Assembly: GCA_017561665.1 (NCBI GenBank)
Contig: JAFZBQ010000126.1
Span: 1 to 51,002, forward strand
Length of the DNA stretch: 51,002 nucleotides
Direction of reading: 5' to 3'
From: Bacteroidales bacterium
GTDB taxonomy: Bacteria > Bacteroidota > Bacteroidia > Bacteroidales > UBA932
Under the pieces are notes generated by a model. The model was not told the DNA's origin. It did no database searches and saw only the letters and a list, made by a program, of their open reading frames with translations. How positions within the stretch are numbered: the first letter of the stretch is position 1; each line of letters starts with the position of its first letter. This document shows, piece after piece, positions 7,161 through 34,302 of this stretch. Position numbers and translations under genes: made by a program.

Positions 7161-9305
7161 TTATTTAATTACCGAATCGATAAGTGTTTCGTCTGCAATA
7201 TTGGGTATGGTGACCTTGAGGCCGGGGGTGCGGTCCATTTCGCGCCGGATGGCCTCCATAGAGCCGCCGTTGCGTGCCCAGCTGCGGCGGGCGATGCCGT
7301 TGTTCACATCCCAGAAAAGCATTTGGCGGATGTGACGCGCGGAATCTTCGCCGCCGTCTATCACCATTCCGAAGCCGCCGTTTATGACCTCGCCCCAGCC
7401 TACGCCGCCGCCGTTGTGAATGGATACCCAGGTGGCGCCACGGAAGCCGTCGCCAATCACGTTCTGGATTGCCATGTCGGCGGTGAACTGGCTGCCGTCA
7501 TAGATATTGCTGGTTTCGCGGAACGGGGAGTCGGTGCCGGAAACGTCGTGGTGGTCGCGGCCCAGCACTATAGGGGCTTTGATTTCTCCGCGGCGGATGG
7601 CCTCGTTGAAAGCCAGCGCAATCTTGGTGCGGCCCTCGCAGTCGGCATACAGGATGCGGGCCTGCGAACCCACCACCAGATGGTTGCGCCCCGCCTCCTC
7701 TATCCAGCGGATGTTGTCCAGCATCTGGCCGCGGATACTCTCCGGAGCACCGGCGGCGCATTCGCGAAGCACCTTCACCGCCAGGGCGTCGGTCTTGGCC
7801 AGATCCTCGGGATCCTGGCTCATACATACCCAGCGGAACGGGCCGAATCCGTAGTCGAAATAGAAAGGACCCATGATATCCTGGACATAAGACGGATAGC
7901 GGAATTTGCCATCCTTCATTATATCTGCGCCGGCACGGGATGCCTGCAGCAGGAAGGCGTTGCCGTAGTCAAAGAAATACATTCCTTTGGCGGCCAGGGT
8001 GTTGATGGCGTCGACCTGACGGCGCAGCGATGCCTCCACCGCCTCCTTGAACCTTTCCGGATCGGCGGCCATCATCCTCTTGGACTCTTCAAAACTGTAT
8101 CCGACCGGATAGTAACCGCCCGCCCAGGGGTTGTGCAGCGAGGTCTGGTCTGAACCCAGGTCGACGTGCATATCCTCTGCGGCAAGCCTTTCCCATAGAT
8201 CTACCACATTGCCCACATAGGCCAGCGAAACGACCTCCTTGGCGGCCACAGCCTTGCGGATGCGGGAAATGAGTTCTTCCAGGTCGGGATGGAGCTCATC
8301 TACCCAGCCCTGGTCAAAGCGCTTCTGCGCCGCGGCTGGATTGATTTCCGCAGTGACGCTAGCCACGCCGGCGATGTTGCCCGCCTTGGGCTGTGCGCCC
8401 GACATACCGCCCAGGCCAGCCGTTACGAACAGCACTCGTCTCTCGTCACCCCCGGCTTGACCGTCGTCACCCCCGGCTTGACCGTCGTCACCCCCGGCTT
8501 GACCGGGGGTCTGAGATGGCCGGTCGTAGCCGGCCATGACGTCTTCTTTCGTCATCCCGGAAATGACGTCTTCTTTCGTCATCCCGGGCTTGACCCGGGA
8601 TCTCATCACCCTACGCGCGGCGTTCATCACCGTGATGGTGGTGCCGTGCACGATGCCCTGAGGGCCAATGTACATATAACTGCCGGCAGTCATCTGGCCG
8701 TACTGCGACACGCCCAGGGCGTTGAAGCGCTCCCAGTCGTCGGGCTTGGAATAGTTGGGGATGACCATACCATTGGTAACCACCACCCGCGGCGCATCCT
8801 TGTGGGACGGGAAAAGCCCCATCGGCAGGCCGGAATACATCGCCAACGTCTGATCCTCCGTCATATTGGCCAGATACTGCATCGTGAGCAGGTACTGGGC
8901 CCAGTTCTGGAACACGGCGCCGTTGCCGCCGTAGGTGATAAGCTCGTGCGGATGCTGCGCCACGCGCGGGTCCAGATTATTCTGGATCATCGCCATAATA
9001 GCGGCAGCCTGCCGACACTTTGCAGGATAGGCGTTGATGGGCCGGGCGTACATCTCGTATTTTGGCCGGAACCGGTACATATAGATGCGGCCGTACTCTT
9101 CCAGTTCCCGGGCAAATTCGGGCGCCAGATGGGCGTGATGACGCGGTTCAAAATAGCGCAGGGCGTTCTTGAGCGCCAGGCGCTTCTCTTCTTTTGTCAG
9201 GATGTCCTTGCGCCTGGGCGCGTGGTTTACAGTGTTGTCGTATGGCCTGGGCTCGGGAAGAATCTCCGGAATGCCCGCCAGTATTTCTTTCTGGAACTGA
9301 TCCAT
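7161..9305 (-). CDS. hutU: Urocanate hydratase with an in-frame palindromic-repeat insertion
   Basis: 714 residues; without the insertion about 657, close to the usual Bacteroidota length. It converts urocanate to imidazolonepropionate using NAD+ as electrophile. Conserved blocks are ITYGGNGAVFQNWAQ (about 123), TAGSYMYIGPQGIVHGTT (about 207), FVTAGLGGMSGAQPKAGN (about 293), SDQTSLHNPWAGGYYPVG and GATWVSIHNGGGVGWGE. Residues ~234-290, between NAARRV and the LFVTAGLGG strand, are foreign: two 9-residue repeats (GMTKEDVxx) and three 7-residue repeats (GQAGGDD), encoded by palindromes. The frame stays open and all conserved blocks remain, so the enzyme may still work with an enlarged loop. It starts one base after the ftcD stop. 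Confidence 0.95.
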   Translation of the reverse strand: MDQFQKEILAGIPEILPEPRPYDNTVNHAPRRKDILTKEEKRLALKNALRYFEPRHHAHLAPEFARELEEYGRIYMYRFRPKYEMYARPINAYPAKCRQAAAIMAMIQNNLDPRVAQHPHELITYGGNGAVFQNWAQYLLTMQYLANMTEDQTLAMYSGLPMGLFPSHKDAPRVVVTNGMVIPNYSKPDDWERFNALGVSQYGQMTAGSYMYIGPQGIVHGTTITVMNAARRVMRSRVKPGMTKEDVISGMTKEDVMAGYDRPSQTPGQAGGDDGQAGGDDGQAGGDERRVLFVTAGLGGMSGAQPKAGNIAGVASVTAEINPAAAQKRFDQGWVDELHPDLEELISRIRKAVAAKEVVSLAYVGNVVDLWERLAAEDMHVDLGSDQTSLHNPWAGGYYPVGYSFEESKRMMAADPERFKEAVEASLRRQVDAINTLAAKGMYFFDYGNAFLLQASRAGADIMKDGKFRYPSYVQDIMGPFYFDYGFGPFRWVCMSQDPEDLAKTDALAVKVLRECAAGAPESIRGQMLDNIRWIEEAGRNHLVVGSQARILYADCEGRTKIALAFNEAIRRGEIKAPIVLGRDHHDVSGTDSPFRETSNIYDGSQFTADMAIQNVIGDGFRGATWVSIHNGGGVGWGEVINGGFGMVIDGGEDSARHIRQMLFWDVNNGIARRSWARNGGSMEAIRREMDRTPGLKVTIPNIADETLIDSVIK
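8436..8606. repeat. Palindromic repeat cluster inserted in frame in hutU
   Basis: About 171 bp (57 codons). It holds three hairpin units: ACCCCCGG-CTTGA-CCGGGGGT (8490-8510), ATGGCCGG-6 nt-CCGGCCAT (8516-8537) and ATCCCGGG-CTTGA-CCCGGGAT (8581-8601). Each has a perfect 8-bp stem and a 5-6 nt loop, with GTC before and TC after. Around them are three tandem 21-bp units (8441-8503) and two 25-bp near-perfect copies (8536-8560 and 8563-8587, period 27). All periods are multiples of three. A related cluster lies at 34108-34283. Confidence 0.9.
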
Positions 9306-11596: not shown

Positions 11597-13282
11597 CTAC
11601 AAATAGATCATAATCATAATCTGGGCGGCGACTACTCTTAAAAACATCGTCAAGGGATATACTGTGGCGTAGTTGACGGCGATGCGGCTGGAACCGTATG
11701 TCTGCTCTGTGAACGAGAGCAGGACTACGTCGGTGGTGCCGCCCGCCAGCAGGCCGCATATGCGCAGAAAGTCCATCTTAAGGGCATATTTGGCTATGAG
11801 GGCCGCTATCAGCATAGGAATCGTGACAATCAGGAATGCGTACAGAATCCAGATGTATCCGCCGCCGACCAGGCTGCTTACGAATGTCTCCCCCGCTCCG
11901 ACTCCGACGGCCGCCATAAACAGCGACAGGCCAATCTCGCGAATCATAAGGTTGGCACTGAGGGCGGTGTAGGTGGTAATGCGGAGCTTTGGACCGAAAT
12001 GTCCCAGGAGGATGGCCACAATAAGTGCACCGCCGGCCAGACCCAGCCTGAGCGGCTGCGGCATCGACGGGAAACGGATGGGCAACGTACCCACCAGAAC
12101 TCCAAGGGCGATGCCGAAGAATATCGGTACCAGATTGGGTTTGGAAAGGGTTTCGGGCTTGTTGCCGATGAGTTTGGAAAGGCCTTTGATGCCCTCTTCC
12201 GTACCCACTACCTGTATGCTGTCGCCCACCTGGAGAATTACGTCGGGTTCTGCCTGCAGTTCGATGCCGGCGCGCAGGATACGGGTCACGGTGACTCCGT
12301 ATTTATGACGGATATCGAGCTTGCGAAGGCTCTTGCCGGTGATGTCGGATTTGGTGATGGAGAGTCGGCGGCTCATCAGCTTGCTGCCGGGCTTCTGCCA
12401 GTCGCGCATATCGGCGGTGAATTCTTCTCCGAATATGATACGCACCAGGTCCCGATGTCCGGCGTCGGTGACAATCAGAAGCTTGTCACCTTCTGCCAGG
12501 ATCCAGTCAGGGTCGGCTACGGATACTTCGCTGCCACGCATGACCCTGGAGACCACAAAATGCTCACCCATCTTCTCTTCAGAAATGGAGGCCAGCCGCT
12601 TGCCGAAGATGGCGGGGTTCTCTACCTTGCAGGCGATGCGCAGCACATTGTTCTCTTCGTCGCCCTTATGCTCTGAGATAGCCTTCTCCTTTTCTATGTC
12701 GATCCTGAAAAGACCTTTCAGGCACATTACAAGCAGCATTGCACCAAGCACGCCAATAGGATATGCCACCGCATAGGCCGATGCAATGGTTGACGACTCC
12801 TCTTCTGCCGCCTTCAGGCTGCTGCCGAGCGCTACGGCGGAATCGGTGAGCGCCTGCTGTGCGGCACCCATTCCCGGGGTGTTGGTTATGGCACCCGACA
12901 TCACGCCCGTCATCGTAGCCAGGTTTTCACCCGAAACCAGATGGATGACGTAAGTTGTGACCATCGTGAGCACTACCATCAAAACGGCCATCAAATTCAT
13001 TGGAAGGCCCTCCTTGCGGAAGGAGCTGAAAAAGCCGGGACCTACCTGGAGGCCTATGGCGAACACGAACAGTATCAGTCCGAAATCTTTGATAAAGGAG
13101 AGCATCGTGGGGTTGATGCGCAGTCCGAAATGGCTCAGTATGATACCTACGAAAAGAATCCAGACCATTCCGAAAGAGATGCCCCACACTTTGAAGCGCC
13201 CCAGCCAGAGGCCGATGGCGATTACCAAAGCCAATATGAGTATGGCACCGGCGGTGCCGCCTTGTGAAATCAGATTCATCAT
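11597..13282 (-). CDS. AspT/YidE-family putative transporter (Asp-Al_Ex and TrkA-C domains)
   Basis: 561 residues from the ATG at 13282 (a second ATG follows at once). Its architecture is that of the aspartate:alanine exchanger family: about five N-terminal membrane segments (GGTAGAILILALVIAIG, then FGLILFVFAIGLQVGPGFF), two cytoplasmic TrkA-C-like domains (about 195-375) and a second membrane block ending in MIMIYL. GAITNTPGMGAAQ and GGTTDVVLLSF are the paired re-entrant-like motifs of the family. The substrate is unknown. It follows the redox operon on the same strand after 34 bases, so it may be its last gene. A longer frame to 13420 overlaps the SDR gene and was rejected. Confidence 0.85.
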   Translation of the reverse strand: MMNLISQGGTAGAILILALVIAIGLWLGRFKVWGISFGMVWILFVGIILSHFGLRINPTMLSFIKDFGLILFVFAIGLQVGPGFFSSFRKEGLPMNLMAVLMVVLTMVTTYVIHLVSGENLATMTGVMSGAITNTPGMGAAQQALTDSAVALGSSLKAAEEESSTIASAYAVAYPIGVLGAMLLVMCLKGLFRIDIEKEKAISEHKGDEENNVLRIACKVENPAIFGKRLASISEEKMGEHFVVSRVMRGSEVSVADPDWILAEGDKLLIVTDAGHRDLVRIIFGEEFTADMRDWQKPGSKLMSRRLSITKSDITGKSLRKLDIRHKYGVTVTRILRAGIELQAEPDVILQVGDSIQVVGTEEGIKGLSKLIGNKPETLSKPNLVPIFFGIALGVLVGTLPIRFPSMPQPLRLGLAGGALIVAILLGHFGPKLRITTYTALSANLMIREIGLSLFMAAVGVGAGETFVSSLVGGGYIWILYAFLIVTIPMLIAALIAKYALKMDFLRICGLLAGGTTDVVLLSFTEQTYGSSRIAVNYATVYPLTMFLRVVAAQIMIMIYL

Positions 13283-13316
13283 TTCGGCGGCAAATGTATA
13301 AAAAACTGCAAAATAG

Positions 13317-14129
13317 TTACAGATAATTCTCCAGAAGGTGCTCTGTGGCATCCCAAATGGATGAATCCAATGCGGAATCCAGATATCGTTTGTCCATCTC
13401 GTGGCTTCCCTTCCCCACAAAATATCTCACACCCTGTTCCGATTCGAGTGCGTGAAGTGCCGGTTTGACGCCGTTCTCCGGCTTTTTGCATAGGGGCTTG
13501 AAGATGGCGTCGGCAATTGAATCGTACCAGTGGCCAAGGTCAATCATGCCGGTTCCCACAACCCCCGGATCGGCCACGTTGACTACGAATTGCGGATAGC
13601 GGCGGGCAAACTCAAGCGAGAACGAGAGCAGGGCGCGCTTGCTGGCGGCGTAGGTCTTCAGTTGGCGGAAGTCTTTCCGGGAAGGCTGAAGCCTGTCTAC
13701 TGATATATCGGCATAGCGGCAGGTCAGGGAGATCATATTGACTATATGGGCCCCGTCGGCAAGTTTGTCGGCAAGCAGGCGGGTCAGCAGCCACGGCGCG
13801 AAATAGTTCACCGCAAAGGTCTTTTCAAAACCGTCGGCGGTAAGGCAATAATCCCTGGAGATGATGCCGGCGTTGTTGAACAGCCCGGTAACTGTGCCTT
13901 GCCGGACGCTGTCGGCCAAGGATTTGACCGAATCCAGGGAAGAAAGATCGACCTCGCTTATCTCTATTTCGGCCTTCGGATGATGTGACAGCGCGTTGCT
14001 GCGGGCCACCTCCGCCTTTGCCCGGTTGCGGCACGCCATTATCACGGAACAACCTTTGGCTGCAAGGGCATCTACGGCTGCAAATCCCATCCCGCCGGTG
14101 GCGCCGGTAACTATTACAGTCTCTTTCAT
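13317..14129 (-). CDS. Short-chain dehydrogenase/reductase (candidate hydroxysteroid dehydrogenase)
   Basis: 270 residues, a classical SDR. TGATGGMG at the N-terminus is the NAD(P)-binding TGxxxGxG motif, CRN after beta-2 suggests NADP preference, NNAG is present, and the catalytic Tyr-x3-Lys is in YAASK with a Ser in NMIS upstream. The closest pattern is the retinol-dehydrogenase/WWOX-like group. The ATG at 14129 overlaps the Old Yellow Enzyme stop as ATGA; an upstream in-frame TTG was rejected. It sits in an operon with a steroid 5-alpha-reductase, so oxidation or reduction of a steroid hydroxyl/keto group is a reasonable inference, but position and stereospecificity cannot be read from the sequence. 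Confidence 0.88.
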   Translation of the reverse strand: MKETVIVTGATGGMGFAAVDALAAKGCSVIMACRNRAKAEVARSNALSHHPKAEIEISEVDLSSLDSVKSLADSVRQGTVTGLFNNAGIISRDYCLTADGFEKTFAVNYFAPWLLTRLLADKLADGAHIVNMISLTCRYADISVDRLQPSRKDFRQLKTYAASKRALLSFSLEFARRYPQFVVNVADPGVVGTGMIDLGHWYDSIADAIFKPLCKKPENGVKPALHALESEQGVRYFVGKGSHEMDKRYLDSALDSSIWDATEHLLENYL

Positions 14130-15373
14130 TTCCAACGTTTTTCTGCCGATTCAACCTCTTTTTCCAGCCGCTTCGGGAGGTTCTCCACGCAACTGTGGCA
14201 CTTCATCTCCAAGGTATACATACGTCCGATGCAGTAATTGGAGTGGCCACATGCGCTGCAGGTCATCTGGCCGGTGTGCAGTTTGTTTACGAAGTCGGTG
14301 TCGCGCACCAGTGCGCGGGCTACCTGCAGTCCCTGGAATCCGGCCTCGAGCACCTCCTCCATCTTTGCCAGGGAGGTCAGGCCGCCGACGTATATCAGAG
14401 GCAGTTTTACCGCCTCGCGGAACTGTTTGGCGTCTTCCAGGAAATAGCCGTCCTTATAGGGGACGGTGGGCACCATAATCCGGCCGAAGATGCGCACCAT
14501 GGCCCTCAGCCACCAGAACTTGCGCATATCCATGTAGTGGGTCATTGTCTTGAGCGGCATCGCCCCGCGCATAACCTCCATGGGCGCCTTGCTCACGAAT
14601 CCGGCAGAGAGCACGATTGCGTGAACTCCCAGACGCTCCAGTTCGCGGGCCACTTCCAGGCACTCTTCGCGCTGCATTCCGCCCTTGAAACCATCGTGCA
14701 TATTCATCTTGACAATCACACCCATATCGCTGCCGGCGTGCTTCATAACTTTGGCGATGACGCGTCGCATCAGGCGCATCCGGTTGTCCAGGCTGCCGCC
14801 GTATTCGTCGCGGCGGTGATTGGTATATGGAGAAAGGAACTGGCTGATGAGATAGCCGTGGCCGGCATGAATCTCCACACAGTCGAAGCCGGCCTCCCGT
14901 GCCAGATCCACCGCGTGGCCGAAATCCTCTACAAGGGAGTCTATTTCCGATACTTTGAGCCTACGCACGAAAGTCGGAGAGTAAAGATTGAAGCCGCTGG
15001 AAGCACCCACCGGGGTGCAGCCGCAAGTGGCACGGTGGGTCATATTGCCGCAGTGTCCCAGTTGTATGGAGCATTTTGCCCCCGCCTCGTGTACCGCGTC
15101 GGTAATGCGTTTCAAACCCGGGACAATCTCTTCCCTCATCCACAACTGGCCGTCGAAAGAGAGGCCGCTGCGGTTCACGGATGCATATGCCAGGGTAGTC
15201 ATCCCCACTCCGCCACGGGCCACAGCCGTGTGGTAGTTATACAAATCGTCGGAAGGCGAATTGCCGTAGGCCATATTTTCGAAGGCGGCGCTTCGGATCA
15301 CCCGGTTGCGAAGGGTCACCGGCCCTATCGTCACTGGGGTAAAGACGGGAGAATCTATATACTTTTCTGCCAT
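14126..15373 (-). CDS. Old Yellow Enzyme-family NADH:flavin oxidoreductase (candidate ene-reductase, 5-beta-reductase-like)
   Basis: 415 residues: an FMN-binding TIM barrel without the C-terminal FAD domain of the longer 2,4-dienoyl-CoA reductase/BaiCD type. Motifs are LRNRVIRSA, QLGHCGNMTH, HAGHGYLISQFLSPYTNHR then DEYGGSLDNRMR, and PLIYVGG. The C-terminus has a cysteine cluster (TCSACGHSNYC, then KCHSC) that could bind an Fe-S cluster, though the spacing differs from the usual C-x2-C-x3-C-x11-C. Family members reduce activated C=C bonds. Next to a 5-alpha-reductase, reduction of a 4-ene-3-keto steroid, or dehydrogenation in reverse, is plausible. It starts one base after the 5-alpha-reductase stop. 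Confidence 0.85.
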   Translation of the reverse strand: MAEKYIDSPVFTPVTIGPVTLRNRVIRSAAFENMAYGNSPSDDLYNYHTAVARGGVGMTTLAYASVNRSGLSFDGQLWMREEIVPGLKRITDAVHEAGAKCSIQLGHCGNMTHRATCGCTPVGASSGFNLYSPTFVRRLKVSEIDSLVEDFGHAVDLAREAGFDCVEIHAGHGYLISQFLSPYTNHRRDEYGGSLDNRMRLMRRVIAKVMKHAGSDMGVIVKMNMHDGFKGGMQREECLEVARELERLGVHAIVLSAGFVSKAPMEVMRGAMPLKTMTHYMDMRKFWWLRAMVRIFGRIMVPTVPYKDGYFLEDAKQFREAVKLPLIYVGGLTSLAKMEEVLEAGFQGLQVARALVRDTDFVNKLHTGQMTCSACGHSNYCIGRMYTLEMKCHSCVENLPKRLEKEVESAEKRWK

Positions 15374-15374
15374 A

Positions 15375-16145
15375 TCAATATATGAAAGGAAGAATTCGTT
15401 TTACTTTGCTTGTATCAAGCTGGTCGGGGAATTCCTTGCAATAGAGGTCGTAAATACGTGCCGCGCGCGGTGCCAGGTTGGCGAATGTCCAGAGTGCGAA
15501 CACCGCCCCGGCCCACGACCAGGTGAGTATCGCAAATCCTGTCCACTCCATGAATTCGCCAAAATAGTTGGCGCTGGTTACATAGCGGAACATTCCGCCT
15601 TGCGGCAGGTAGTGGGCGGTGTCGCCCGGCTTGCGCAGGTTGCGGATGATGCCGTCCGACTGGATGTTGATGAACATTCCGGTAATGAATATGAGGGTCC
15701 CGGCCAGGAACGGCAGGCTGCCAAGCCAGTTTGACGAATAGTAGTCCGAGGGCGAAACATAGAATATCCACCCGCCCTGCATGAAGGCATTCAGGGTATT
15801 GAACACCGCTCCCATCAGGATAATTGCCAACGGCATACGGTTGTGGCCGCGCAGCTGGTTGGGAAAGATGAAAGAGCGGTGGAAATAATGCGCCTCGAAG
15901 AGCAACAGGAATACCAGCCGCGCCAGGTCGGTCCGGCGGTCGGAATACCACCACAGCAGGAGCATAGTGATGAACACCGGTACCTCCATCAAAAACCAGC
16001 CGAAATGGTTGTCCAGCGACGGCCCCCACTTAGGTTTGTAGAACTTACCGTAGCCGGCATCTACAAAAAACAGGGCTATGAATACCACTACGGCAATCGC
16101 CGCCATCACTATCAGGAATGTATTGAAAAATGGTTGTGTAAACAT
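15375..16145 (-). CDS. Steroid 5-alpha-reductase family protein (3-oxo-5-alpha-steroid 4-dehydrogenase)
   Basis: 256 residues, seven or so membrane segments, nearly the length of human SRD5A2 (254). Similarity runs end to end: GYGKFYKPKW, WFLMEVPVF with Glu54 (human Glu57), HYFHRSFIFP with Tyr87 (human Tyr91), GMFINIQSDGIIRNLRKPGD, and PQGGMFRYVTSANYFGEF with Asn193 and Glu197 at the same numbers as the human NADPH/active-site residues; the C-terminus ILPFIY matches the human ALIPFIF end. It is expected to reduce the 4,5 double bond of 3-keto-4-ene steroids or bile acids to the 5-alpha form with NADPH. The neighbouring OYE and two SDRs fit a steroid A-ring pathway. All contact residues seem present. 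Confidence 0.9.
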   Translation of the reverse strand: MFTQPFFNTFLIVMAAIAVVVFIALFFVDAGYGKFYKPKWGPSLDNHFGWFLMEVPVFITMLLLWWYSDRRTDLARLVFLLLFEAHYFHRSFIFPNQLRGHNRMPLAIILMGAVFNTLNAFMQGGWIFYVSPSDYYSSNWLGSLPFLAGTLIFITGMFINIQSDGIIRNLRKPGDTAHYLPQGGMFRYVTSANYFGEFMEWTGFAILTWSWAGAVFALWTFANLAPRAARIYDLYCKEFPDQLDTSKVKRILPFIY

Positions 16146-16157
16146 CGTTTTAAAGGT

Positions 16158-17114
16158 CTACTGAGGATATTCCAGCCGGATATTGTCCAGCCACAGGGTG
16201 TTGCCAAGTTCGCCGATGAAGGCGCCGCGGCTGCCGGCGGTGATCTGGAGCACGGCGTGTGTCGGGGCTTCGTCTGCATCGGCCCACCCCTCCTCCATTA
16301 TCGGTTTTTTCTGGCCGCGGCTGTTCAGGGCGTAGAGCGTCAGGCGGCCCGTCAGAAGCCCCATATAGTCGCGGAAACGGCTGTCGGTGGTAGCATTGCC
16401 GTAAATCATCTCCACCCGCATATTCTTTACCCAGCCGTCGCTGCTTTTCGAAATCCGCTTGAAGGCGGTGCCCACGCGCAGGGCGTGGATGTTGCCGTCG
16501 GCATCCTCCCAGCGTTTCTGCAGTATCAGCATTATCTGACAGGGATCCTTGCCGGGAAATTCCTTCTGGCTAAAGGTGGTGCCGCGGGTCAGGGTGCCGG
16601 TGTTGGGAAGATATGCCTTGCAGTCCAGAACCAGCGCCGACGGCCGCTTGGTGAACGGAATGCCCCAGTCCATAAAGGCGTAAGGATTCTTGACGCCGGT
16701 GATGGGTTCCAGCATTTTGCCCCAGTATAGGGCGCCACTGGCCAGCACTTTTATGTCGACCAGGCCGGCCACCTTGCAGCTGGCAAAACGGGTCGTGAGG
16801 CGGGCGCACTTGCCGCTGGGGCCGTCGTCCGGTTCCACCGTCAGGCTGGTCTTGGTGACGCCGGAGACGCGGGCGTATGCATTTGAAGAGGCCCAGATAG
16901 TGCGGGAATAGTCGTAGGCGCTGTTGCCGTTTATGGTCTCGTTCGGCCCCACGACGTATATGGTTTTCTCCTCCCCGCCTATTATGGCCGATTCCTTGAT
17001 ATGGCGCACAGTCCAACTTTCGAATTCGCCGTAGGGCACCTTCTCCAGCCGCTGGGCGCGGGCAGGAACCACCATCATCAGCAGGGCAAGTATGGTTATT
17101 TGAACTTTTCCCAT
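16158..17114 (-). CDS. Secreted protein with PCMD-like (putative carbohydrate metabolism) domain
   Basis: 318 residues. The start at 17114 gives a good SPI signal peptide (MGKVQITILALLMMVVPARA, then Q). The mature part is beta-rich: TIWASSNAYARVSG, DDGPSGKCARLTTR, YWGKMLEPITGVKNPYAFM and the end LGNTLWLDNIRLEY, a pattern I associate with the PCMD family (PF13201), common in Bacteroidota surface proteins with a C-terminal jelly-roll-like fold. Its function is unknown. It overlaps the upstream SDR by 19 bases and is 12 bases from the 5-alpha-reductase. Inferred role: periplasmic or surface capture of the operon's substrate. An ORF start at 17237 inside the SDR was rejected. Confidence 0.62.
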   Translation of the reverse strand: MGKVQITILALLMMVVPARAQRLEKVPYGEFESWTVRHIKESAIIGGEEKTIYVVGPNETINGNSAYDYSRTIWASSNAYARVSGVTKTSLTVEPDDGPSGKCARLTTRFASCKVAGLVDIKVLASGALYWGKMLEPITGVKNPYAFMDWGIPFTKRPSALVLDCKAYLPNTGTLTRGTTFSQKEFPGKDPCQIMLILQKRWEDADGNIHALRVGTAFKRISKSSDGWVKNMRVEMIYGNATTDSRFRDYMGLLTGRLTLYALNSRGQKKPIMEEGWADADEAPTHAVLQITAGSRGAFIGELGNTLWLDNIRLEYPQ

Positions 17115-17863
17115 AACGATGCTACAAGTTTTGACGGAAGGGCAGCAATCAGCGGCGGCAGCCAGAAATTCATGGGTGCGGGAGATATCACCCGGCGTCC
17201 GCGGAACATCGCCTTCAGGGCCCGTTTTACCAACCATTGCGGAGTGCGGATAAATCCGGTGCGGACACCCAGTTTCATCTTCTTCTCATCGAGACGATAC
17301 AGCGGCGTGGCGATGGCTGCCGGACATACTGTGGTCACTGTGACGCCGTAGGGCTTCATTTCGTATGAAAGCGAACGCCCGAAACTCTTCAGATAGGCCT
17401 TGGTGGCGGAATATACGGTGATGCCGGGCGCCGGGATGCGGGCGGCCATGGATGACATTATCAGCAGGCGGCCGCTACCGCGCTGTTTCATGGCATTGCC
17501 AAACAGCAGGCAGGTGCGGGTGACGGTTGTCATATGCAGGTTCATCATCGCCTGAACCCGCGGCAGATCTTCTGTAAAAAGTTCCTTAAAAAAGAACATC
17601 CCGGCATTGTTTATCACTATGTCGGGGAGGATTCCGGACTGCGAGGTGCACCATTCAAAAAGATTGTCGGCGGCATCAGCCGTGGCCATGTCCTGATAAC
17701 GGACGGTAACGGAGACGGGCCACTCGCCTTCGATGGCGGTTTTGGCGGTCGACAGCTCCTCTTCCCGGTTGCTGACCAGTAAAAGGTCATAGCCGCGGGC
17801 GGCCAGTTGCCGCGCGTATTCCAGCCCCATGCCCGAGCTGCCTCCTGTAATAAGCGCAATCAC
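17096..17863 (-). CDS. Short-chain dehydrogenase/reductase (HSD17B3/B12-like)
   Basis: 255 residues, starting at a GTG codon. Cofactor motif TGGSSGMG, NNAG in the middle, Ser in IMSSMAARI and the catalytic YSATK (Tyr-x3-Lys). The long C-terminal amphipathic tail (WLPPLIAALPSKLVASLWEKF) is typical of the 17-beta-HSD type 3/12 and DltE-like group, which are membrane-associated. It is the first gene of the steroid-type operon and is divergent from the gene at 17955. A TAnnTTTG -7 element on the minus strand (17884-17891) sits about 20 bases upstream of the start. Its substrate is inferred from context only. Confidence 0.87.
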   Translation of the reverse strand: MIALITGGSSGMGLEYARQLAARGYDLLLVSNREEELSTAKTAIEGEWPVSVTVRYQDMATADAADNLFEWCTSQSGILPDIVINNAGMFFFKELFTEDLPRVQAMMNLHMTTVTRTCLLFGNAMKQRGSGRLLIMSSMAARIPAPGITVYSATKAYLKSFGRSLSYEMKPYGVTVTTVCPAAIATPLYRLDEKKMKLGVRTGFIRTPQWLVKRALKAMFRGRRVISPAPMNFWLPPLIAALPSKLVASLWEKFK

Positions 17864-17883
17864 TTTTCCTACGATAGTAGTTA

Positions 17884-17891
17884 CAAAAATA
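17884..17891 (-). promoter_or_regulatory. Candidate -7 element of the steroid redox operon
   Basis: On the minus strand the bases read TATTTTTG, a full match to TAnnTTTG, giving a leader of about 15 bases before the GTG at 17863. No clear TTTG lies at -33. On the plus strand, TATCTTTA at 17904-17911 is a one-mismatch -7 element for the divergent gene at 17955. Confidence 0.4.
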
Positions 17892-17954: not shown

Positions 17955-18272
17955 ATGAGCGAAGAAAATGTAAAGAACCCCATGGACCTCAATGGTGACG
18001 GCAAAGTCACTCTGGGAGAAAAGGCGCAGTATTATGCAGGCAAGGCTTCCGAGAAAATAGAGAAAGCCATTGACGACTACAAGGAATCCGCAAAGGAGAG
18101 CCTTAAGGACGCAAAGGAATTTGCAGACAAAGCAAAAGGTAAGGCGAAGGAGGAGTTTGAAAAGGTTTCCGAGAAGGCCAAAGAAGAATTTGCCGAGGCA
18201 AAAGGCAAAGCCAAGGAGGCTTTCGACGGTGCCAAGGAAAAAGTTAAGGATTTTACCACGAAGAAGGCATAG
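17955..18272 (+). CDS. Small EF-hand-loop protein with a long Lys/Glu/Ala helical repeat
   Basis: 105 residues, highly charged, with no signal peptide. Residues 10-21 (DLNGDGKVTLGE) form an EF-hand-type loop. The rest (about 30-105) is one continuous amphipathic helix with loose 11-residue periodicity (KAKGKAKEEFEKVSEKAKE), like YtxH/LEA-type stress proteins. It is probably a small cytoplasmic or membrane-peripheral stress or structural protein; I do not assign a family. It is followed by a strong terminator. Confidence 0.75.
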   Translation: MSEENVKNPMDLNGDGKVTLGEKAQYYAGKASEKIEKAIDDYKESAKESLKDAKEFADKAKGKAKEEFEKVSEKAKEEFAEAKGKAKEAFDGAKEKVKDFTTKKA

Positions 18273-27896: not shown

Positions 27897-28739
27897 ATGA
27901 AAAAGTTTATTATTGCAGTTGTCGCAATCGCCGTAGGTTTTGTACAGGCGAATGCAATGAGCCACACAAGAGCACAGGCAGAAGCGCTCTTCCTCACCGA
28001 CAAGATGGCTTATGAGCTCAATCTCACCAACGCACAGTACGATGCGGTATATGAGATCAATTACGATTATTTCGTAAGCCTGGTGGGTACTACCGACATT
28101 CTCGGCATCTTCTGGAATCGCCGTGAGCGCGAGCTCGAATGGGTACTTACCGATTGGCAGTACAGAGCTTATCTGACATCCAGCTACTTCTATCGTCCGG
28201 TTGCGGTATATAACAATACCTTCCGCTTCGCGATCTACGACCGCTACGCACACAACCGGTACTACAAACCCGTCCGTAAGATATACAAACACTATCGCGG
28301 CGGACACAACTACGGGGCACCCGGTCACGGACTGGCAGCCAACCATCCCGGCAAGGTAGGACCCAACCACGGCCCTGCTGACAAGCCCGGCAAAGTGGCA
28401 CCCAACAACGGTCCTTCAAACAAGCCCGGCAAGGTAGCTCCCAACAACGGTGGCAACAAGCCCGGCAAGGTAGCTCCCAACAACGGTGGCAACAAGCCCG
28501 GCAAGGTCGCACCCAACAACGGTGGCAACAAGCCGAACAAGGTGGCTCCCACCACTGGTGCAAACAAGCCCGCAGCAAGCGGCAACCGCAACGCAAATGT
28601 TGCAAAACCCCGCACTAACGCAGGCACTGCTACCACCCGCTCCACTGTAACTTCAAGCGCGCCTCGTGCTTCCAGGAATGCACCCGCCGCTCGTCAGAGC
28701 TCCAACGCAGTTCGCGCAAGCAGCGCAGGCCGCAGGTAA
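27897..28739 (+). CDS. Secreted protein with a compact N-terminal domain and a tandem-repeat basic tail
   Basis: 280 residues. Signal peptide MKKFIIAVVAIAVGFVQANA. Residues 21-135 form a domain with FLTDKMAYELNLTNAQYDAVYEINYDYF, a type I have seen in Bacteroidota periplasmic proteins and reminiscent of Spy/CpxP helices; it is rich in Tyr/Arg. Residues ~149-222 are tandem 12-residue units of the form NKPGKVAPNNGG, then a Ser/Ala/Arg/Asn-rich basic tail ending SSAGRR. Its function is unknown. The basic disordered tail suggests binding to cell wall, LPS or nucleic acid. It is monocistronic, with its own terminator. Confidence 0.8.
   Translation: MKKFIIAVVAIAVGFVQANAMSHTRAQAEALFLTDKMAYELNLTNAQYDAVYEINYDYFVSLVGTTDILGIFWNRRERELEWVLTDWQYRAYLTSSYFYRPVAVYNNTFRFAIYDRYAHNRYYKPVRKIYKHYRGGHNYGAPGHGLAANHPGKVGPNHGPADKPGKVAPNNGPSNKPGKVAPNNGGNKPGKVAPNNGGNKPGKVAPNNGGNKPNKVAPTTGANKPAASGNRNANVAKPRTNAGTATTRSTVTSSAPRASRNAPAARQSSNAVRASSAGRR
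28339..28566 (+). repeat. 36-bp in-frame tandem repeats
   Basis: About five to six units of 36 bp encoding NKPGKVAPNNGG-type 12-mers. The central units are almost identical at DNA level, implying recent expansion; the outer ones are diverged. Confidence 0.85.
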
Positions 28740-32031: not shown

Positions 32032-34302
32032 TTACTTGTTAAAATGAGGTGTTATTTCAATAAAGAATTCAAAATTGCGACCGGGCATAGGATGGTTCAG
32101 TACCGACTCATACTCCTCGTTGAATAGGTTGTTGACCGCAAGTTTAAGGGAGAGTCCTGCATCACGCAGTGCAAAACGCTTTTCCAGCACGATGTCGTTC
32201 ATAATATATGGCAAAACCCTGCCTATCCGGGTGGCAATATCATTGTCGCTGGTAGTGTACCGCTCGCTGTACCAGCACCACTTGTAGCTTAAGCGCCAAT
32301 TCCGGTAAGCGAGTGCAACGCGCGATGATGCAGAGAATTGTGGAATATATACAAGCTGCTTCCCGATGGCTTCGTCTGCCCAGTCGGCAGGATCGCCGTG
32401 GTTAATGGAGGGTGTCCAAGCGAAGCAGCCGTTTCCGCTTAGCTGCCAGTCCCTTCCCATCTGAAGTTTACCCTCTGCTCTGGTTTCTATGCCGTATGCG
32501 TGCACCTGTTTTACATTTCTGGGAGTCCAATAACCCTTGAAAGTGGGTATCCACACTATCCAGTTGTCGATATATGAGTCAAACCACGTAGCAGAAGCGT
32601 TAATGGCGTATCTTCCATCCCGGGCAGAGTCGTAATTGAGCCCGGCATCATAGCCGTAACCGCTCTCAGGCAACAGGTCGGGGTTGCCTCCGGGCAGGAA
32701 ATACAAGTCGTTCAGGGTCGGATATCTGAAGTTTCTGCTGGCGGATGCCTTTGCAGTTAAATTATTGGTAATAAGGTAATCAATATTGATTACCGGAATA
32801 ATTGGTGAAAGAGATTCGCCATACAGTTCCTCGCGCACGGCGGCAGAAATGCCCAGTCTGGAGGTGGCGTTCCACTTTGCAGAAATGTATGCGCTGGTCT
32901 CGAAACGTCCTTCGTCGTAGCCTATGGCCGTCTTACCGGGTGCGGCTGAAGTTCCAGTACCCGTGCCAAGACTTAAAGCATTACGGTCGGTACTTTTTAC
33001 AAAATGTTGATATAACGATAGTTGCGCTGTAAGTAAAAGATGCTCAGCTGCCAGCCACTTCCCCTCTGCCTGGCCATGTATGGTATTGATCAGGCTGCGG
33101 CTGGTTATCATAGCCGCCATAACCCCGTTGCCCTTGTCGCGGGCAAAATCGTATCCCTGGCGGGTGTGAAGCCACCCGGCCTTTGCAGAAAGGATGAGTC
33201 TTTCGGTTGAATGATTCCATCCGGTAACAAGTCGTAATGTGTTTTCACTCTGCTGGTTTATATAACCCAATCCATTCCTGTAATCGACGCTGAGCAAAGG
33301 CACCCCGCGCACCGAGTTCATCCACCAGGCGTTAATGCTCAGCCGGTCTCCGCCGTCGGTGGTGTAGTATATATCCTGCATCAGGTGCAGGTCCCTGATG
33401 CTACCGCACCGGTTGGTTTCTATCGGATAATAGCTGCCGTTGGGTATGCCTGCAGCGTCGTAGGTATACTCCTTCTTGTTGTAGTTGCGGTAGGTAAAAT
33501 CGTTCCTGCTCAGGGTGGCTGCCACGCGTGTCGAGGTCTTCAGCCGTCGTCCGCCATAGTTCACCTTCAGGAAGCCGTCCCAAGTACTGAAGGATCCGGC
33601 GCCCAGCACGGCATCTATATTGACACCTTGCAATGCGTCGGGGGCTGTTTCGAGCAGCACTGCCCCACCCAGCCCGCCGCCGGTCGCCGCAAGTGACGAA
33701 CTGCCGTGCAGCAGTGTCGCCCTGTCGGTAAAATAGGACGGAATCAGGCTGAAATCGGTCATACCCAGCATCGGCGAGTTTATCTTCATACCGTTCCAGG
33801 TCACCTGGGTATGGGAGGCGGCGGTACCCCTGAAAGAGACGGTGGCCAGGCTGCCGCGGCCGTATTGCTTTACGAAGATGGAACTGTTGTAGGTGAGGAT
33901 GTCGGCCATCGACTGCGAAACCGTCAGTTTAAGGGCCGCCGAGTCCAGGCGGCTCTTCTGTTGCCCGATTTCGCTCAGCGACCGGTCGGCAATTACCGCC
34001 GACTCTTCTATCGGAGTGACATAAGAAGGGTCGTCGTTCCACCAGTCGTTCTGTGCGGATGCGTTCAGGGGTATGAATAGCGTGAAGAGGGCTATGAGGA
34101 TTGCGAGACCCCCGGTCAAGCCGGGGGTGACGGTTGCCACCAAACGGTGAGTGACGGTTGCCGTCGAATGGTGGGTAAGGCCCCCGGTCAAGCCGGGGGT
34201 GACGGTTGTCACAAAACGGTGAGTGACGGTTGTCGCCAAACGGTGGGTGACGGTTGTCGTCATGCCCGGCAGCGACCGGGCATCTGTCCTTCTCCGCATC
34301 AT
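32032..34302 (-). CDS. btuB: TonB-dependent outer-membrane receptor (BtuB-like) with palindromic-repeat-extended signal region
   Basis: 756 residues from the ATG at 34302, which overlaps the btuG stop as ATGA. The plug domain starts near residue 85 (SVSQSMADILTYN-like: TVSQSMADILTYNSSIFVKQ; then GTAASHTQVTWNGM), followed by a 22-strand-type barrel ending GRNFEFFIEITPHFNK. The hydrophobic signal core LAILIALFTLFIPLNASA is preceded by about 65 residues instead of the usual 5-10; residues ~9-65 are encoded by palindromic repeats (TVTPGLTGG, TVTHRL units). No start other than GTG/TTG exists nearer to the core. Placement behind a cobalamin riboswitch with btuG supports corrinoid uptake. Confidence 0.85.
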   Translation of the reverse strand: MMRRRTDARSLPGMTTTVTHRLATTVTHRFVTTVTPGLTGGLTHHSTATVTHRLVATVTPGLTGGLAILIALFTLFIPLNASAQNDWWNDDPSYVTPIEESAVIADRSLSEIGQQKSRLDSAALKLTVSQSMADILTYNSSIFVKQYGRGSLATVSFRGTAASHTQVTWNGMKINSPMLGMTDFSLIPSYFTDRATLLHGSSSLAATGGGLGGAVLLETAPDALQGVNIDAVLGAGSFSTWDGFLKVNYGGRRLKTSTRVAATLSRNDFTYRNYNKKEYTYDAAGIPNGSYYPIETNRCGSIRDLHLMQDIYYTTDGGDRLSINAWWMNSVRGVPLLSVDYRNGLGYINQQSENTLRLVTGWNHSTERLILSAKAGWLHTRQGYDFARDKGNGVMAAMITSRSLINTIHGQAEGKWLAAEHLLLTAQLSLYQHFVKSTDRNALSLGTGTGTSAAPGKTAIGYDEGRFETSAYISAKWNATSRLGISAAVREELYGESLSPIIPVINIDYLITNNLTAKASASRNFRYPTLNDLYFLPGGNPDLLPESGYGYDAGLNYDSARDGRYAINASATWFDSYIDNWIVWIPTFKGYWTPRNVKQVHAYGIETRAEGKLQMGRDWQLSGNGCFAWTPSINHGDPADWADEAIGKQLVYIPQFSASSRVALAYRNWRLSYKWCWYSERYTTSDNDIATRIGRVLPYIMNDIVLEKRFALRDAGLSLKLAVNNLFNEEYESVLNHPMPGRNFEFFIEITPHFNK
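34106..34286. repeat. Palindromic repeat cluster in the signal-peptide region of btuB
   Basis: Three palindromes: ACCCCCGG-TCAAG-CCGGGGGT (34108-34128), CCCCCGG-TCAAG-CCGGGGG with a following T (34181-34200), and ATGCCCGG-6 nt-CCGGGCAT (34262-34283). Between them are several diverged 22-bp units built on AAACGGTGAGTGACGGTTG. The first two are the same hairpin as the one in hutU at 8490-8510, in the opposite orientation relative to the gene. Confidence 0.88.

Follow-up and report, generated by a model that had tools for sequence, protein, structure and literature searches.

Positions 13,317 to 17,863 of the 51,002-nt Bacteroidales contig JAFZBQ010000126.1 (assembly GCA_017561665.1, lineage UBA932), which was analyzed over its full length and is called the window here, carry five genes that likely form a single transcription unit remodelling the A ring of 3-oxo steroids, either bile acids or sterols; one of the genes encodes a PCMD-domain protein with an apparent link to steroids. 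The window is one whole contig (C41) of a draft genome of 2.21 Mb (127 contigs, 89.9% complete). All five open reading frames (ORFs) were confirmed on the minus strand (13317-17863) and encode, in order of transcription, a classical short-chain dehydrogenase/reductase (SDRa; 17096..17863, 255 amino acids (aa), GTG start, PF00106), the PCMD-domain protein (16158..17114, 318 aa, PF13201, signal-peptide-like N-terminus), an SRD5A-family membrane reductase (putative 5α-reductase, 5AR; 15375..16145, 256 aa, PF02544), a short flavoprotein of the Old Yellow Enzyme family without an FAD domain (OYE; 14126..15373, 415 aa, PF00724), and a second classical SDR (SDRb; 13317..14129, 270 aa, PF00106). The initial annotation, made from the letters of the window alone, had described overlaps or gaps of 1-19 bases between these genes, and the junctions bear this out, with a 19-base overlap between SDRa and PCMD, a 12-base gap between PCMD and 5AR, a 1-base gap between 5AR and OYE, and a 4-base overlap between OYE and SDRb. 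In the host draft genome, PF02544, PF00724, and PF13201 each match once, and each time within the five-gene unit.

The linkage between the 5AR and the OYE is conserved well beyond the window. A scan of genome contigs returned 180 relatives of the 5AR, of which the best 80 were taken further, and 104 of 392 sampled Bacteroidales genomes were found to carry a 5AR (108 matches, the window included), with 80 of the other 107 matches fetched and those omitted being mostly weak. Once identical copies were merged, 157 distinct 5AR loci were available, including the window; the sequence around the 5AR contains an OYE match in 120 of them, and for 118 of the 156 relatives the OYE and 5AR are no more than 4 kb apart. 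Sequence of at least 3 kb upstream and at least 6 kb downstream of the 5AR is available for 89 of the 120 OYE-bearing loci; 70 of these carry SDRa, 64 SDRb, and 32 PCMD. The order and strand of the last three genes vary among loci, with SDRa or PCMD found upstream or downstream and the PCMD gene divergent in Barnesiella-type loci; given that the other genes are shuffled in this way, the persistence of OYE-5AR proximity in 118/156 relatives indicates more than chance. In a quick 5AR tree of 106 rows, for which one in three of the named OYE loci was retained, all 66 OYE-linked rows fall inside a 79-row group (SH-aLRT 100), together with 13 unlinked rows. This group excludes 25 of the 38 unlinked rows and leaves PbSRD5A and human SRD5A2 outside, a placement that carries a long-branch warning.

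By sequence, the 5AR is genuinely related to SRD5A. It scores 141.6 bits against PF02544 (SRD5A/Steroid_dh; cut-off 22.6) and 23 bits against DUF1295 in Pfam, and DUF1295 was accordingly rejected as the better family; grouping with non-steroid DUF1295 enzymes, which the initial annotation had named as the outcome that would count against a steroid role, is not what the profile scores indicate. Near whole-length matches were returned by phmmer in the PDB for PbSRD5A (7c83, 5.5e-50) and human SRD5A2 (7bw1, 2e-39), together with a distant hit, a very-long-chain enoyl-CoA reductase (22of, 4.9e-7). Over aligned stretches, the 5AR shares 37.7% identity with PbSRD5A and 36.2% with human SRD5A2, and has in common with both the Glu/Tyr carbonyl pair and most of the NADPH residues. 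E54, Y87, N193, and E197 of the 5AR align with E57, Y91, N193, and E197 of human SRD5A2, where the carbonyl pair and the NADPH contacts have been named (PMC7815742; the carbonyl pair also in PMC7591894), and where a change of E57 or Y91 is reported to cripple the enzyme (PMC7815742, PMC7591894). In an alignment with the 156 Bacteroidales relatives, of which 118 are OYE-linked (within 4 kb) and 38 are not, E54, Y87, D164, R171, E197, and R227 are invariant, while N193 is kept in 152/156, N160 in 155/156, and Y235 in 155/156. Among the OYE-linked 5ARs, these six residues and N160 are present in 118/118, with N193 in 116/118 and Y235 in 117/118. Reduction of 3-oxo-4-ene steroids to the 5α form is the predicted activity of this protein.

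The OYE was assigned to PF00724 (189 bits, Pfam) and reached 200 bits against the BaiCD equivalog NF041087 (cut-off 825), the best stretch covering positions 4-257 of the 642 in the profile; against both the BaiCD and the mycofactocin OYE 2 models, the best stretches comprise residues 10-263. H169, H172, and Y174, which we take to be the usual carbonyl-binding and proton-donor positions, are kept in 117/117 relatives. As in the iron-sulfur flavoenzymes of the BaiCD/FadH type, a TIM-barrel flavin domain is followed by a cluster of Cys residues. Three of these (Cys375, Cys381, and Cys392) are invariant in the 114/114 relatives with letters there, and a fourth ligand may be provided by Cys372/373 or Cys395 (Cys in 68 and His in 26 at position 395). 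In an automatic alignment, Cys375 falls on Cys338 and Cys381 on Cys342 of E. coli FadH, and Cys392 on FadH Cys361, off the motif residue Cys354; FadH Cys338, Cys342, and Cys354 are presumably cluster ligands. The OYE would therefore be predicted to carry an iron-sulfur (Fe-S) cluster fed by a separate partner. A sample of 296 genomes from the phylum, in which Bacteroidales were few, contained 21 others with an OYE relative at E ≤1e-60, all with 33-38% identity and under a single family code.

Both SDRs display the cofactor motif of the family and an intact catalytic triad, with S138, Y151, and K155 of SDRa kept in 93/93 relatives and S134, Y160, and K164 of SDRb in 86/86. Their gene context suggests that they act as hydroxysteroid dehydrogenases (HSDHs). 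In the pathway we propose, one SDR would oxidize the 3-hydroxyl to a ketone, and the OYE, probably an Fe-S enzyme, would act at C4-C5, either dehydrogenating the 5β ketone to the 3-oxo-4-ene or reducing the 3-oxo-4-ene to the 5β form. The membrane 5AR would then use NADPH to convert the 3-oxo-4-ene to the flat 5α ketone, with the E54/Y87 pair binding the C3 carbonyl, and the other SDR would reduce the ketone to a 3-hydroxy product, probably 3β. The exported PCMD protein may handle the steroid or its conjugate in the cell envelope.

The PCMD protein scores 69.6 bits against PF13201 (cut-off 28), and its N-terminus resembles a signal peptide without a lipobox (by eye). In an alignment of 35 rows (A1), comprising the window protein and 34 of its 39 5AR-linked relatives, 40 columns are invariant. 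An AlphaFold2 model (pLDDT 89.2, pTM 0.86) displays a beta-rich fold, for which Foldseek returned only six PDB chains at E ≤0.001, belonging to four PCMD-type proteins of solved structure (3hbz, 3s30, 4het, and 4jrl; TM by query 0.43-0.46), each titled 'putative glycoside hydrolase'; a sequence profile search recovered the same four. The next Foldseek matches are weak carbohydrate-binding modules. The labels of PF13201 and its PDB entries name no tested function, a limited literature search on PCMD returned nothing (an absence from print that is only as strong as that search), and the subfamily of the window protein is currently labelled only 'putative carbohydrate metabolism'.

Genomic context offers more on this subfamily, which we also call A1 (E ≤1e-50). 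It occurs in 65 of the 392 Bacteroidales genomes, compared with 188 for PF13201 as a whole, and is found in 40 of the 53 genomes with a near 5AR (best match ≥266 bits, a cut set in this analysis) versus 25 of the 339 others. Of the 67 A1 matches located away from a 5AR, 62 are covered by the 60 regions that we fetched; the 5AR is absent from all 60, and in 11, a sulfotransferase (PF13469; 123 bits for L236) lies immediately upstream on the same strand. In these loci (L229, L236, L239, L240, L245, L246, L247, L248, L249, L254, and L255), the A1 gene directly follows, on the 3′ side, an operon ordered sulfate-type permease-cysC-cysD-cysN-sulfotransferase, where those genes were recognized; a twelfth case (G204) was noted from coordinates only. 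This order is like that of the Bacteroides cholesterol sulfonation cluster BT_0411-BT_0416, for which import (BT_0412), synthesis of 3′-phosphoadenosine-5′-phosphosulfate (BT_0413-0415), and sulfotransferase (BT_0416) roles are reported (PMC9417993), although the window genome has no PF13469 match. By this likeness in gene order, the A1-linked sulfotransferase would be of sterol type. Five further A1 regions, under a single family code, have an SDRa-like neighbor.

Of the 392 genomes, 30 carry a close relative of the sulfotransferase (≥58% identity, likewise a cut set here), and A1 is present in 27 of these. Taken together, a 5AR and/or the sulfotransferase is present in 55/65 genomes with A1 versus 16/327 without it, or, counted by family codes, in 17/18 versus 3/95 (of 113 codes, a total that may be slightly too high). 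Where PF13201 is present without A1, a 5AR and/or the sulfotransferase occurs in only 6/123 genomes, and 20 regions around other PCMD genes contained no sulfotransferase, 5AR, OYE, or SDR match at E 1e-20. Shared descent and gut life could be the source of these counts. Within the genus of the window, a comparison that takes out part of this effect but in which many drafts are incomplete and the genomes are not independent, A1 is present in 6/11 5AR-bearing genomes versus 0/15 others (Fisher p 0.002), and all six genes lie beside the 5AR by coordinates. In a PCMD tree of 99 rows (59 from 57 of the 60 regions, with L242, L263, and L276 under the cut), the 5AR label requires 5 changes (at least 4 by starred branches) and the sulfotransferase label 4 (at least 3). 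As the 5AR-linked PCMD rows were found through the 5AR, only the sulfotransferase link is unprompted.

The core of the cluster, comprising a 5AR, a flavin oxidoreductase, and a 3β-HSDH, is of a kind already described, reportedly in 2021. In Bacteroidota, such a set, the 3β-HSDH being predicted, is reported to yield allo bile acids (PMC10382948, PMC9645264), and the Parabacteroides merdae 5AR, clustered with a predicted 3β-HSDH and an NADH:flavin oxidoreductase, is described as needed for allo-lithocholic acid derivatives (PMC10382948). In the window, the 5AR, flavin oxidoreductase, and SDR are adjacent, as in the isoallolithocholic acid cluster of P. merdae and others, which likewise combines an SRD5A-like enzyme, a flavin oxidoreductase, and an SDR in Bacteroidales (PMC10382948, after Sato et al.). 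The steroid-type A-ring redox operon around an SRD5A-like enzyme that the initial annotation had proposed therefore agrees with the families and with this precedent, and that reading was broadly right overall, if partly supported. Compared by description, the window differs from the P. merdae cluster in its ruminant-type lineage, second SDR, and PCMD gene, which may not be real differences, and no named P. merdae locus was present among the best 80 of the 180 5AR relatives. The short form of the OYE, with no FAD domain and three invariant Cys residues, is newly noted here.

Among the 80 named loci, 42 have ruminant-stomach titles or RUG/RUI identifiers, 12 are hindgut or faecal, 2 are from reindeer, and 24 are other, and 18 of the first 20 listed of the best 80 relatives are from the ruminant stomach; RUG, RUI, and SUG identifiers were assumed to denote habitats (RUG for rumen). 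From the habitats of its relatives, the window lineage is probably a gut lineage of the cow, sheep, or goat forestomach. Bile joins the gut downstream of the stomachs, and the usual forestomach substrate of the operon may not be bile acids. The argument that the rumen, having no bile acids, has no bile-acid chemistry is weakened by a report in which rumen contents given bile acids produced allo-cholic acid (alloCA) and 3β epimers, read as 5α- and 3β-epimerisation (PMC11193847). The emphasis of that report is on baiN and a bile acid symporter; the portions of it consulted assign no gene to the 5α step. For the reported formation of alloCA in the rumen, the operon of this forestomach lineage is a candidate.

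A number of observations weigh against the steroid pathway proposed here, in its substrate, its enzymes, and its PCMD protein. The genome has no evident true bile salt hydrolase, with one weak CBAH match (32.7 bits) to a 334-aa protein that is not clearly such an enzyme (L306 1141-2145, G000 contig 31). Plant sterols, or ketones derived from sterols (of the sitostenone type), may instead be the native forestomach substrates of the same chemistry, giving 5α-stanols, as would suit the ruminant-stomach counts above, the entry of bile below the stomachs, and the PCMD subfamily that also adjoins a cholesterol-sulfotransferase-type operon; given that the experimentally backed relatives use bile acids (PMC10382948) and that rumen contents form alloCA when fed bile acids (PMC11193847), we consider this a serious contender that falls a little short of even. 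Regarding the 5AR, the initial annotation had claimed end-to-end motif agreement with SRD5A2, which holds for E54, Y87, N193, and E197 but missed two departures from both human SRD5A2 and PbSRD5A, to which the operonic setting with an OYE and SDRs adds a third difference. Gln56 of the human 'QEY' motif is replaced by Met53 (Met in 156/156 Bacteroidales relatives), and the NADPH-contact His231 by Ile231, a position that is Ile or Leu in 114/118 OYE-linked rows versus His in 20/38 unlinked rows. Changing Gln56 to Ala or Leu is reported to abolish activity in the human enzyme (PMC7815742); this Gln is not family-defining in Pfam, and one Bacteroidales 5AR has been reported active (PMC10382948). 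In addition, 38/156 relatives lack a nearby OYE, comprising 24 distant 5ARs (36-43% identity, L179-L202; no OYE within 4 kb in 24/24 fetched) and 14 nearer ones, most of which have several kb of flank. A single clade of OYE-linked 5ARs was ruled out by an approximately unbiased (AU) test (p-AU 1.0e-10), implying repeated loss or gain of the OYE linkage. The distant OYE-less 5ARs may have other jobs, and these, the loss of the QEY Gln in all 156 Bacteroidales relatives, and the weak matches to 22of and DUF1295 would fit a non-steroid reductase acting on a native lipid (a polyprenol reductase or enoyl reductase role); set against the far stronger SRD5A1/2-type matches, the close linkage with an OYE and SDRs, and a patchy presence that would be odd for a core lipid step (11/26 genomes of the genus, several of them incomplete), such a role appears quite improbable. 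For its part, the OYE, at 415 aa, lacks the FAD/NAD(P) domain of BaiCD and FadH, and its Cys spacing is unlike that of FadH, with the third Cys not aligned to a cluster Cys there. That it lies outside the BaiCD equivalog and that gut bacterial steroid reductase families with other bond preferences exist (a delta-6 reductase, PMC11722256, and, by the title of a cited reference, an OsrABC pathway) leave some room for a different target in place of C4-C5, be it the delta-1 or delta-6 double bond of a steroid or an enone resembling a drug, which we regard as unlikely in view of the repeated pairing with a 4-ene 5α-reductase and the described cluster of 5AR, 5β-reductase, and 3β-HSDH (PMC10382948). 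As to the SDRs, no named HSDH was found among the 25 best of 210 (SDRa) and the 25 best of 192 (SDRb) NCBIfam matches, all 50 of which fall under their cut-offs, nor among PDB relatives of SDRa (E 1e-15) or SDRb (E 1e-10).

For the PCMD protein, no steroid-type neighbor is present for 43 of the 99 rows in the PCMD tree, 13 of the 53 near-5AR genomes lack A1, and other genes recur nearby, namely a dapA-like gene (7 A1 loci, spread over four family codes) and an ABC-type ATPase (also 7 loci), both named by eye. Coupled with a fold that matches other PCMD proteins and then weak carbohydrate-binding modules, this would suit an ordinary secreted carbohydrate-binding hitchhiker whose tie to steroid genes stems from shared gut ancestry, an explanation we hold to be nearly, if not quite, as probable as its opposite, as it must accommodate the 6/11 versus 0/15 split within one genus, the 0/20 regions of other PCMD subfamilies with such genes, and the at least 4 changes of the 5AR label by starred branches. 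The substrate capture that the initial annotation had suggested for this protein gains indirect support from the second steroid-type cluster, but its non-PCMD fold neighbors are weak carbohydrate-binding modules; a role as a steroid-handling envelope protein is what the context suggests. Host immunity and metabolism respond to bile acids and sterols that gut Bacteroidales modify, and no proteins carrying such steroids through the bacterial envelope came up in a limited literature survey. The secreted PCMD protein, recurring beside the 5AR and a sterol-sulfotransferase-type cluster, represents a direct and testable envelope candidate. Its link to two steroid-type pathways, the Met at the position of the QEY Gln in all 156 Bacteroidales relatives, and the ruminant lineage all raise interest in the cluster. 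A bolder proposal, that A1 serves steroids or their conjugates as a dedicated protein of the envelope in two separate Bacteroidales pathways, 5α reduction and sterol sulfonation, and that operons of the window type are the missing basis of forestomach 5α-epimerisation, is one we would advance only tentatively and would sooner expect to fail than to hold.

Upstream of the five-gene unit, a candidate -7 box (TATTTTTG, 17884..17891, minus strand) of the TAnnTTTG type, which we take to be that of Bacteroidales, lies 20 bases 5′ of SDRa. A second candidate box (13291..13298, minus strand) precedes the next gene 3′ of SDRb, an AspT/YidE-type transporter (11597-13282; NCBIfam PRK03818, 595 bits). Each is weak alone. 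TAnnTTTG occurs 32 times in the window versus 19 expected (0/100 shuffles reach 32), and these two (17891-17884 and 13298-13291) are the only minus-strand occurrences within 13291-17891. Their placement is weakly consistent with a single five-gene unit, which the box of the transporter, if real, would possibly close at SDRb. The transporter was rejected as a sixth operon gene, being near the cluster, among the searched loci, only in the window and in L046 (opposite strand). Likewise, a divergent 105-aa gene (17955-18272) was rejected as a member, recurring beside the cluster only in L012; its product is amphipathic and Lys/Glu/Ala-rich, with a weak apolipoprotein-like Pfam match under the cut-off.

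Elsewhere in the window, a CRISPR-like array reaches the contig end (50673-51002; ~47-base repeats with a period of 78 bases), with five core copies by eye and 3.5 by Tandem Repeats Finder (TRF). A 36-base tandem repeat (28338-28572, 6.4 copies), its unit a multiple of three, lies within the ORF 27897-28739, which had no Pfam match at E 0.001. Short tandem repeats were also noted at 34109-34256 (24/72 bases) and 8443-8594 (21 and 27 bases).

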